Source: Gemmatimonadaceae bacterium
GTDB lineage: Bacteria > Gemmatimonadota > Gemmatimonadetes > Gemmatimonadales > Gemmatimonadaceae
NCBI GenBank assembly: GCA_030835125.1
Contig: JAUQWM010000049.1
Span: forward strand, 62,001-126,000
Direction: 5' to 3'
Length of the DNA: 64,000 nt
Position numbers and translations under genes: made by a program. The notes under the pieces are model-generated. The model ran no database searches. It was given only the letters and a program-made list of their open reading frames with translations, and was not told the origin of the DNA. Positions 21,757 to 28,400 of the stretch are shown here, one piece after another (position 1 is the first letter of the stretch; every line of letters begins with the position of its first letter).

Positions 21757-21847
21757 GGAGACGTGGCCGAGAGGCTGAAGGCGGCGGTTTGCTAAACCGT
21801 TATACGGGCTTAAACCTGTATCGAGGGTTCGAATCCCTCCGTCTCCG
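21757..21847 (+). tRNA. tRNA-Ser (anticodon GCU)
   Basis: 91-base class II tRNA. The acceptor stem GGAGACG (21757-21763) pairs with CGTCTCC (21840-21846), with discriminator G. The anticodon loop TTGCTAA gives anticodon GCT. There is a long variable arm (TACGGGCTTAAACCTGTA) and a T-arm with GGTTCGAATCC. CCA is not encoded. Confidence 0.95.
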
Positions 21848-21935: not shown

Positions 21936-23366
21936 GTGTCCAACCGCCTCCGCTTCGCGCCCTCACCCACCGGCTACCTCCACGTCGGCGGCGCCCGGAC
22001 CGCGCTCTTCAACTGGCTCTACGTCCGTCGGTATGGCGGCCAGTTCCTGCTCCGCATCGAGGACACCGATCGGGCCCGCAGCACGGAAGACAGCACGCGC
22101 GCGATCTTCGAGGGCCTCCGCTGGCTCGGCCTGCAGTGGGACGAGGAGGTCTCCTACCAGGGCGCGAACGTCGCGCGCCACCAGGCGGACGCGCGCCGGC
22201 TCCTCGAGTCGGGTCACGCCTATCGGGATTTCACCACGCCAGCGGAACTCGACCGCCTGCGCGGCGAGGCGGAGGCCAGGGGCCAGGCCTTCCGGTTCGA
22301 CCGCCGGCTGGCCGACCTGCCGGCGGATGAGATCGACCGGCGGGTGGCACGCGGCGATCCTTTCGCGATTCGTTTTCGCGTCCCCGAGGGCGAAACCTCG
22401 TGGGATGACCTCGTGCACGGGACGATCACGTTCCCGAACAAGGACGTCGATGACTTCGTGATCCTCCGCTCGGACGCCTCACCGGTCTACAACTTCGCGG
22501 TCGTGTCGGACGACGTGGACATGCGCATCACGCTCGTCATGCGCGGCGACGACCACATCTCCAACACGCCCAAGCAGGTCATGCTGTACCGCGCGATGGG
22601 ACACGAGCCACCACGGTTCGCCCACCTGCCGATGATCCACGGCATGGACGGCAAGAAGCTCAGCAAGCGGCACGGCGCCACCGCGGTCGGCGACTACCAG
22701 CACGAGGGGATCCTGCCGGCCGCGATGTGCAACTTCCTGGCGCTCATGGGGTGGTCGCCGGGCGGCGATCGCGAGATCATGTCGATGGACGAGATGGTCT
22801 CGCTGTTCAGCGCCGAGGGATTGCTCCGGAAGGCCGCGATCTTCGATACGAAGAAGCTCGAGTGGATGAACGGTCAGTACCTGGCCCTGACGCCGGCCAC
22901 CGAACTGGACCCGATCGTCCGTCCCCTGGTGGTCGCGTCCGGGCTCGTCACCTCCGCGCAGCTCGACGCGCGACGCGACTGGTGGCTCTCGCTGCTCGAC
23001 CTGCTGCGGGTACGCGCGCGCACCACGCATGACATCGCCCGGCAGGCGGCCACCTACTTCAGCGACAGCGTGGAGTACGATCCGGACGCCGTGGCAAAGC
23101 ACTGGAAGGATCCCGCGACCGCCGCGTCCATCCTCCGCGCCACCGGCGACCGGCTCGCCGCAACAGCGTGGAACGCGGCGGCGATGGAAGAAGCGCTCCG
23201 GAAGCTCGCCGAGGAACTGGGTGTGGGCGGCGGGAAGATCTTCCAGCCCCTGCGGGTCGCGCTGGTGGGGCAGCTGGCGAGTCCCGGGATCTTCGACGTG
23301 CTGATGGTCCTGGGACAGGAGAAGTCACTGGCGCGGATCCAGGCGGCGGTCGAGCGGCTGGGTTAG
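21936..23366 (+). CDS. gltX: glutamyl-tRNA synthetase
   Basis: 476 residues, normal length for the class I enzyme. The HIGH-region motif is PSPTGYLHVGGARTALFNWL. KMSKS appears as KKLSKRHGA. The discriminator motif (ILRSDASPVYNFAVVSDDVD) and the C-terminal helical anticodon-binding domain are present. It starts at GTG 21936, which gives MSNRLRFAPSPTG; there is no Shine-Dalgarno, only the C-rich arm of the upstream repeat. tRNA-Gln is present in the window but no gatCAB or glnS, so whether this enzyme is discriminating cannot be told here. The stop codon lies in a GTTAGGC heptamer. Confidence 0.97.
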   Translation: MSNRLRFAPSPTGYLHVGGARTALFNWLYVRRYGGQFLLRIEDTDRARSTEDSTRAIFEGLRWLGLQWDEEVSYQGANVARHQADARRLLESGHAYRDFTTPAELDRLRGEAEARGQAFRFDRRLADLPADEIDRRVARGDPFAIRFRVPEGETSWDDLVHGTITFPNKDVDDFVILRSDASPVYNFAVVSDDVDMRITLVMRGDDHISNTPKQVMLYRAMGHEPPRFAHLPMIHGMDGKKLSKRHGATAVGDYQHEGILPAAMCNFLALMGWSPGGDREIMSMDEMVSLFSAEGLLRKAAIFDTKKLEWMNGQYLALTPATELDPIVRPLVVASGLVTSAQLDARRDWWLSLLDLLRVRARTTHDIARQAATYFSDSVEYDPDAVAKHWKDPATAASILRATGDRLAATAWNAAAMEEALRKLAEELGVGGGKIFQPLRVALVGQLASPGIFDVLMVLGQEKSLARIQAAVERLG

Positions 23367-23409: not shown

Positions 23410-24069
23410 ATGTCGGAGCCCCTGACCCCCCTCGAGCGTCGCGTCTATCACTACCTGATCGACTTCCTGGCGGAACAGACCTACCAGCCGAGCGTCAGGG
23501 AGATCGGGCGACACTTCCGGATCAAGTCGACCAAGACCGTCGCCGACATCCTGCAGTCGCTCGAGCTCAAGGGATTGGTCGAACGCAAGGGCAGCCGGTC
23601 GCGCGGCCTGCGCCTCGTCGGGTTCTCGTCGATCGGACAGGTGCAACCAGTCCCGCTCTACCGCCGGCTGAATCCCGGTGATCCGGCACTGACCGACGAC
23701 AATTTCGAGCGCTACGTGGCCATGGACCGGATGTTCGTGCCGGCCGACGACGCGTTCTTCCTGCGTGTCGCAGATGAGGGCCTCGTCGATCGCGGCGTCC
23801 AGGCGGGCGACCTGGTGCTGGTAAACCCGATGGGTCGTGCCCACGACGGCGACGCCGTCGTCGCGCGTGTGGGACCCAACGTGATGGTGCGCCTGCTGTC
23901 GCACCGCGGCGCCCACCTGATCCTCACCCCCGTGTCGTCGGGGCAGTCGGAAGTGGTCGTTGGCCCACTGGACGACTTCGCGATCATCGGGACGGTGACC
24001 GTAATGGCGAAGGCATCAGGCATCAGGCATCAGGCATCAACCACGGCCCCCCTGATTCCTGATGCCTGA
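23410..24069 (+). CDS. LexA-like transcription regulator lacking the autocleavage residues
   Basis: 219 residues. Residues 1-70 form a LexA-type winged helix-turn-helix (LTPLERRVYHYLIDFLAEQ, then QPSVREIGRHFRIKS as the recognition region and GLVERKGSRSRGLRL as the wing). Residues 78-200 align along their length with the S24 peptidase domain of LexA. The catalytic residues are changed: E. coli Ser119 corresponds to Gly124, Lys156 to Arg161, and the Ala-Gly cleavage site to Pro89-Gly90. It therefore should not self-cleave on RecA filaments and may be a constitutive or ligand-controlled repressor. The last 16 or so codons, including the stop, lie in a heptamer-repeat hairpin. The alignment was done by eye; the wHTH assignment is firm. 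Confidence 0.8.
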   Translation: MSEPLTPLERRVYHYLIDFLAEQTYQPSVREIGRHFRIKSTKTVADILQSLELKGLVERKGSRSRGLRLVGFSSIGQVQPVPLYRRLNPGDPALTDDNFERYVAMDRMFVPADDAFFLRVADEGLVDRGVQAGDLVLVNPMGRAHDGDAVVARVGPNVMVRLLSHRGAHLILTPVSSGQSEVVVGPLDDFAIIGTVTVMAKASGIRHQASTTAPLIPDA

Positions 24070-24080
24070 TGCCTGATGCC
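24012..24080. repeat. heptamer inverted repeat, probable bidirectional terminator
   Basis: Four perfect GGCATCA units (24012-24039) face four complementary units, TGATTCC then TGATGCC x3 (24053-24080), across a 13-base loop. A 28-bp stem results with one mismatch. It separates the convergent LexA-like and TonB-like genes. The LexA-like stop codon is inside the right arm and the other gene's stop (24080-24082) is at its edge. Confidence 0.9.
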
Positions 24081-25018
24081 TAGTAGTTCCCCGGCGGCGG
24101 CCGCTCGCCGGGCGACGCGATCGGCCCGGGTGATGTCGGCGACGTGCGCTGGGCCTGGCGACGCTCGCGCTCCTTCCGGTCCCGGATCGCCTTCACCGCC
24201 TTCCGGAACTGCTCCTCGTTCATCGCCGCCTGGGCATGGAACAGGATGTCGTCACGCATGTACGCCGCATTCCGCGCCCGTTCCATGGCAATCGGGTTCC
24301 CCTGCAGCTGGTTCAGCGGCAGGAGCGCCAGCAGCGCGGTGGGGATGGAGAGCTTGCCGAGGCGGATGAACTGCTGGTCGACGCCCCACTTCGACCCTTC
24401 CTTCCCGAACGTCCAGTCCCCGCGCTCGAACTTGTTAGGCGCGTACGCGTTCGCCGCGAGCGAGTCGATGTGCCGGCGCAACGTGGCGTACAACGCGCTG
24501 TCCAGTCGCTCGGCGTCGGTCTTGGGCGCGTAGATGAACTCGGGGTCGCCGGCCCAGACGCGCGGGTCGTCGTAGTTCGGCTGGACGCCCCGCGCCGAGC
24601 CGGTGCCGCCACGCAAGGGGCCCGTCACCCCCGTGCTGGTCGGGTTCTCTGACCGGGTCGACGGCGGCGGCAGTTCACGCGGGATCTCCGTTGGCGCCAC
24701 GAGCGGCACACTGGCCGGCGCGGGATTCGCTGGCGCCGGCGCGGGACTCGTCGCCCGGCGTGCCGGTTTCGCGGCCGACGTCGACTCCACCGCCGCCGGC
24801 GGTGGCACCGTCACGAAGTCCACGCGCTCGCGCACCGGCCGCGCCTCGCGGTCGACCTGCAGGAACCGTTCGAAGACTGCCGGCATCTGGATCGCCTGCC
24901 ACGCCACGACGCCGAGGACGACGTGCACGACGATGGAAACCACCGTGGACGACTGCGGGCGGCGCACGTGGCGTCGCTTCGGCTGCGTCGAGCCCGGCTG
25001 GTTCTCCAGAGTCGTCAA
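24080..25018 (-). CDS. TonB-like membrane-anchored protein, atypical C-terminus
   Basis: 312 residues. It has a short basic cytoplasmic N-terminus (PKRRHVRRPQ), one transmembrane helix (VVSIVVHVVLGVVAWQAIQM) and a Pro/Ala-rich periplasmic stretch (residues 75-120), which is the layout of TonB. The C-terminal 170 residues do not show the TonB fold signature (YP..A....G.V). Instead they contain DDPRVWAGDPEFIYAPKTDA, a helical region and a charged KAIRDRKERERRQAQR stretch before a Pro-rich end. It probably spans the periplasm and contacts an outer-membrane or cell-wall partner. No exbB/exbD gene is adjacent. Confidence 0.65.
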   Translation of the reverse strand: MTTLENQPGSTQPKRRHVRRPQSSTVVSIVVHVVLGVVAWQAIQMPAVFERFLQVDREARPVRERVDFVTVPPPAAVESTSAAKPARRATSPAPAPANPAPASVPLVAPTEIPRELPPPSTRSENPTSTGVTGPLRGGTGSARGVQPNYDDPRVWAGDPEFIYAPKTDAERLDSALYATLRRHIDSLAANAYAPNKFERGDWTFGKEGSKWGVDQQFIRLGKLSIPTALLALLPLNQLQGNPIAMERARNAAYMRDDILFHAQAAMNEEQFRKAVKAIRDRKERERRQAQRTSPTSPGPIASPGERPPPGNY

Positions 25019-25813: not shown

Positions 25814-28365
<2,552 letters not shown>

Positions 28366-28372
<7 letters not shown>

Positions 28373-28400
28373 CTCCCGTCTTCCCTCTCCCATCTCCCAT
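28366..28400. repeat. heptamer repeat (CTCCCAT type) spanning the start of the DinG-fusion gene
   Basis: Units such as CTCCCAT fill the gap after the upstream gene's stop codon. On the coding (minus) strand they read GGGAGAT and supply several ATGs in different frames, plus G-rich Shine-Dalgarno-like sequence. Confidence 0.75.

Follow-up and report, generated by a model that had tools for sequence, protein, structure and literature searches.

The window, a stretch of 64,000 nucleotides of Gemmatimonadaceae DNA, contains a tRNA gene, gltX, a lexA-like gene (here lexA2) and a convergent gene in series (Table 1). The predicted LexA2 protein matches the Pfam families LexA_DNA_bind (4e-14, above the cut-off) and Peptidase_S24 (5e-15). 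It also scores 120 bits against the NCBIfam lexA equivalog TIGR00498, for which the cut-off is 110.95, so that automatic annotation would call it LexA. The order gltX-lexA2 with the convergent gene behind is conserved in relatives, and a tRNA sequence precedes gltX there as well. An array of inverted GCATCAG-type repeats (window 24012-24080) covers the 3' end of lexA2 and the space between the convergent genes. The stop codon of lexA2 falls inside this array, and the last ~15 residues are therefore repeat-encoded and show no conservation. Further along, the minus-strand gene at window 25814-28393 joins a RadC-like JAB domain, at the N-terminus, to a DinG-like helicase, so that two DNA-repair modules are fused in an unusual way.

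Table 1. Features of the lexA2 locus (window coordinates)
Feature	Position	Strand	Evidence or remark
tRNA gene upstream of gltX (order tRNA-gltX-lexA2)	21757..21847	+	Rfam tRNA, 58.7 bits
gltX, glutamyl-tRNA synthetase, 43 nt upstream of lexA2	21936..23366	+	Pfam PF00749/PF19269; conserved neighbour by synteny
lexA2 ORF, 219 aa, ATG start	23410..24069	+	LexA-like protein without Ser/Lys dyad
N-terminal winged helix-turn-helix (LexA_DNA_bind, residues 3-66)	23416..23607	+	Pfam PF01726, 4e-14
Start of recognition helix, S40-T-K-T-V-A-D46	23527..23547	+	E. coli contacts 39, 41, 42, 44, 45
S24 (LexA C-terminal) domain, residues 82-196	23653..23997	+	Pfam PF00717, 5e-15; fold match Z 18.7
Pro89-Gly90, replacing the Ala-Gly scissile bond	23674..23679	+	E. 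coli LexA alignment
Gly124, replacing the nucleophile Ser119	23779..23781	+	E. coli LexA alignment
Arg161, replacing the catalytic Lys156	23890..23892	+	E. coli LexA alignment
Convergent gene downstream of lexA2	24080..25018	-	No Pfam match; kept at almost every family locus

The first-pass annotation of this DNA described a LexA-like protein in which Ser119, Lys156 and Ala84-Gly85 of E. coli LexA correspond to Gly124, Arg161 and Pro89-Gly90. Aligned with E. coli LexA, the protein shows just these pairs, residue by residue (A84 to P89, G85 to G90, S119 to G124 and K156 to R161). The same annotation held that the winged helix-turn-helix and the S24 fold are retained, which is borne out both by the Pfam matches and by fold matches of an AlphaFold model (pLDDT 86.6). 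Structure prediction, proposed there as a check, recovers the LexA fold, with a Z of 18.7 against the LexA C-terminal domain 1jhc (rmsd 2.4, 129 aligned), about 17-18 against full-length LexA chains and 10.9 against 1lea, the NMR structure of the LexA DNA-binding domain. The only lysines are those at residues 39, 42, 54, 60 and 201, and the S24 domain contains none. With zero lysines between residues 61 and 200, a hidden Ser/Lys pair within the domain is impossible, and no alternative dyad is found in sequence or fold. A usable Ser/Lys pair elsewhere, which the earlier reading had named as a possible refutation, emerges from neither the structural match nor the lysine map. The features of a self-cleaving LexA or S24 peptidase, namely a scissile Ala-Gly (or Cys-Gly), the Ser and the Lys, are all absent. 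Sequencing error was considered and rejected, since the nearest relatives in other assemblies (L034/L005, L004, L033, L042, L044 and L050) also lack all three. Sequence and fold support the earlier view that this is no classical self-cleaving repressor; judged by its modelled fold and its helix-turn-helix, the protein is a LexA family member outside the self-cleaving class.

The assembly (4.48 Mb, 99% complete) encodes exactly two S24 proteins, LexA2 and a canonical LexA1 (L001:1264-1872) that lies beside trp-type genes and has A-G, Ser and Lys intact. This is the second LexA with an intact dyad for which a search had been suggested, and with it the possibility that the window protein is the sole LexA falls away. 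The cleavage site and dyad are intact in 21/21 LexA1 proteins examined, and upstream of the start every one of the 21 lexA1 genes studied has two tandem copies of the direct repeat TTCGG-N6-TTCGG. Repeats of this type are located in the lexA1 promoters of L001 and L133-L152 and at L164:1353 and 1376. Two related boxes, with scores of 15.8 and 15.3, belong to recA of the window's genome, and a perfect box accompanies a radical-SAM gene that has an imuA/RecA-like gene close by. The period of the repeat is 11 bp, as in the alphaproteobacterial GTTC-N7-GTTC box. It looks like a putative LexA1 operator of Gemmatimonadota. Because such boxes precede both lexA1 and recA, the SOS circuit looks ordinary and run by LexA1, and not deviant as had been suggested. 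Control of lexA2 itself through LexA1-type boxes was rejected, as none was seen near lexA2 in the window.

Of 36 genomes of the same family, 32, the window's own counted, have a lexA2 orthologue, and the other orthologues are 42-64% identical to that of the window. LexA1 and LexA2 co-occur in nearly all family genomes. In the 24 genomes of the sister families f2 and f3 there is no lexA2 orthologue, and only LexA1 occurs. A scan of the phylum finds the LexA2 group also in the class families f4, f5, f6 and f9, whereas families f2, f3 and f7 and the genera g22 and g24 lack it. Named records with LexA2 are all Gemmatimonadota. On these comparisons of sequence, LexA2 is an old second LexA paralogue group, family- to class-wide (Gemmatimonadetes), encoded after gltX.

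Loss of the catalytic features is widespread within this group. The alignment of LexA2 from 110 family loci, in which the cleavage-site state is softer than the dyad state for the most divergent sequences because their linker alignment is uncertain, contains 56 that keep A-G, Ser and Lys, 39 that have lost all three and 15 that are mixed. This division indicates that the three are lost together. Most LexA2 sequences come from MAGs; one of the intact proteins is that of Roseisolibacter sp. H3M3-2 (L060). Parsimony counts on a quick tree of the neighbouring GltX protein, in which gain and loss are not polarised, give at least 12 changes of the intact state, 7 of them forced by starred (well-supported) branches, and 14 changes for the all-lost group, 9 of them forced. 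Loss is the sensible direction, since all LexA1 and all sampled LexA2 of family f6 (8/8) are intact, and the ancestral LexA2 was probably a self-cleaving repressor. In family f5 catalysis is gone family-wide, with Lys156 kept in 0/43 and Ser119 in 1/43. Among independent pairs the coupling of Ser and Lys loss has the expected direction (about 6 to 1) and is not significant (median p 0.125).

The DNA-reading helix is kept through these losses. Positions 39, 41, 42, 44 and 45 contact DNA in E. coli LexA (PMC3091678), and at these positions LexA2 has S-K-T-S-D/E in intact and lost copies alike. S39, K41 and T42 are nearly invariant across 146 LexA2 proteins of four compared groups, f5 included, while S44 is less constant: roughly half of the lost copies in the family have A or T instead, and the window protein is among them, with Ala. 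Identity is higher in the helix-turn-helix than in the C-terminal domain in every group (0.80 vs 0.40 in f5). The closest degenerate pairs (L022/L077, L032/L101 and L004/L033) show dN/dS of about 0.08-0.17 in both domains. A somewhat more distant pair, L058/L062, gives 0.51 in the C-terminal domain. Beyond close pairs, dS is unreliable in DNA so rich in GC. The close degenerate pairs are thus under purifying selection at the level of sequence. The retained helix-turn-helix and the low dN/dS argue that selection maintains LexA2 for DNA binding and for its S24 fold, and not for proteolysis.

A palindrome, GTACG-N4-CGTAC (near matches included), is found upstream of 15/56 intact lexA2 genes and 0/39 lost ones (Fisher p 0.0003, kinship uncorrected), and an EM search also recovers it. 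Since only some of the intact copies have it, the idea that all lexA2 genes share a palindromic self-operator in their upstream DNA was rejected. Genome scans give no coherent regulon, as nearly all other matches are coding or precede unrelated genes, and the palindrome is absent from the promoter of the window's own lexA2. It is thus best taken as a lead towards a candidate LexA2 operator. Two g30 genomes have an intergenic TGTACG-N4-CGTACA palindrome at matching positions (L244:1501 and L245:1501), some 125 nt upstream of a TolB-like/amidohydrolase-like gene; it may serve another regulator. An operator upstream of gltX was also rejected; the enriched inverted repeats resemble tRNA stems, and the GTACG box was not found there.

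The distance from lexA2 to gltX is below 50 nt in 0/53 intact copies, as against 21/39 lost ones. The idea that the promoter is lost along with catalysis was not retained, since independent contrasts give no support (3 usable pairs) and the lost copies of f5 keep a promoter. The f5 lexA2 genes (L122-L130, L202-L241) have a highly conserved common promoter, consisting of TTTCTTGACAC followed by CACATTAGGATAG. For the window lexA2, the 43-nt gap to gltX and the lack of a recognisable operator in it suggest that expression follows the tRNA-gltX unit. We infer, more weakly than what is said of the protein, that the gene is probably tied to this upstream unit.

The explanation that we favour, and consider likely, is that lexA2 encodes a paralogue in which autoproteolysis has repeatedly been retired, leaving a RecA-insensitive, constitutive DNA-binding dimer. 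A self-cleaving ancestor would have lost the cleavage site and the Ser/Lys dyad here and many times elsewhere, with the recognition helix and the S24 dimerisation fold kept through the catalytic loss. The window protein would dimerise through its S24 domain, and the dimer would bind an operator conserved across the class. Cleavage stimulated by RecA* would not release it. Its role may be that of a repressor, constitutive or controlled by dose, or that of a co-regulator that occupies operators, and the damage response would be left to the intact LexA1. Of the earlier interpretation, the view that this protein is no classical repressor and the cyanobacterial parallel stand, and a differing SOS circuit finds no support, as LexA1 is intact. 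What the present analysis adds is that LexA2 is a class-wide second paralogue with repeated catalytic loss and a DNA-reading helix that is kept.

LexA2 could instead remain under post-translational control of another kind. The former active-site pocket could have become a sensor for a ligand or for phosphorylation, or a protease such as Clp could take the place of self-cleavage. The f5 replacements are patterned in a way that might fit such a pocket, with mostly Asp/Glu at 119 and His/Tyr/Phe at 156, and the uncleavable LexA of Synechocystis changes its phosphorylation under salt stress (PMC7567884). However, within the family of the window genome the substitutions vary (Gly, Ala, Asp or Glu at the Ser position and mostly Arg at the Lys position), and we regard this explanation as unlikely.

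It is rather less probable still that LexA2 is a decaying gene, drifting beside gltX towards a pseudogene after the loss of its circuit. The lost copies are indeed less identical to one another than the intact copies, both in the C-terminal domain (0.42 vs 0.62) and in the helix-turn-helix (0.65 vs 0.75, i.e. less uniform), and the gene is missing in g22, g24, f2, f3 and f7. However, the frames stay open at 39 family and 43 f5 loci, both domains of the close degenerate pairs have the low dN/dS given above, and in f5 S39, K41 and T42 are near-invariant despite the family-wide loss of catalysis.

A role for LexA2 as a built-in dominant-negative modulator of LexA1, which would dampen or delay the SOS response through mixed dimers or common operators, appears about as improbable as decay. 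The S24 dimerisation fold is common to the two proteins, and they are found together in nearly all family genomes. However, the C-terminal identity of lost LexA2 to LexA1 is just 0.23, and the recognition residues are unlike, as LexA1 has S-A-T-H-E in 21/21 where LexA2 has S-K-T-S-D/E. The lack of a LexA1-type box near lexA2 also counts against this possibility. A usable dyad hidden by misalignment or by an assembly error is hardly conceivable, given the lysine-free residues 61 to 200, the fold match at Z 18.7 and the equal losses across independent assemblies.

Retirement of autoproteolysis in a DNA-binding paralogue accordingly remains our preferred reading. In a broader form it can be put forward tentatively, as a possibility that we would not yet back: autoproteolysis may have been abolished independently at least a dozen times in a single orthologous family with DNA binding kept, so that a repressor once released by DNA damage became constitutive or newly sensed, with the f5 site maybe a new sensor. 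A LexA label from standard annotation would mislead SOS reconstructions in Gemmatimonadota. In the LexA2 group, intact repressors can be matched with catalytically dead ones from closely related bacteria, which raises the question of what a LexA is worth once its switch-off is lost. With at least 7-12 independent changes the repeatability of the conversion can be shown, which single cases such as Synechocystis do not allow. If the broader form is true, LexA2 would be a natural replicated experiment in retiring a proteolytic switch.

Compared with canonical LexA (that of E. coli, or LexA1 at L001), the window LexA2 has the same winged helix-turn-helix and S24 architecture and fold, and passes TIGR00498. 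However, it lacks the scissile bond and the dyad, has other recognition residues and has no LexA1-type operator nearby. Two LexA proteins in one genome are also found in Leptospira interrogans, where LexA1 and LexA2 share about 28% identity (PMC3789691). The Leptospira LexA2 keeps its Ser/Lys pair, is depleted after UV and is encoded in a prophage-like region (PMC3789691), whereas the window lexA2 encodes no dyad and is chromosomal, with neighbours that are fixed across the family. In Streptococcus mutans, the LexA-like regulator IrvR stands apart from the RecA paradigm (PMC7101444). In contrast to the window LexA2, which lacks the cleavage residues, it cleaves itself constitutively and independently of RecA (PMC7101444). 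The SOS regulators of Bacteroidetes keep all of the residues (PMC8565304). A text search of the open-access literature found no paper on a Gemmatimonad LexA of this kind, and a paralogue that repeatedly loses cleavage next to an intact LexA1 appears to be undescribed.

An uncleavable LexA as such is already known from Synechocystis PCC 6803, and the cyanobacterial parallel drawn in the first-pass annotation is apt. In the LexA of Synechocystis sp. PCC 6803 (sll1626), Ala-Gly is replaced by Gly-Gly and Ser119 by Asp; the protein regulates non-SOS genes (PMC3091678, PMC7567884). It is, like the window LexA2, a LexA homologue without the Ala-Gly and the catalytic Ser. However, only the cleavage site and the Ser are reported as lost in Synechocystis, whereas the window LexA2 also lacks the Lys. 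The uncleavable protein of Synechocystis is described as the LexA of its lineage, while the window LexA2 coexists, as a second paralogue, with an intact LexA1. Synechocystis is, moreover, a single case, whereas catalysis in LexA2 has been lost many times within one orthologue group.
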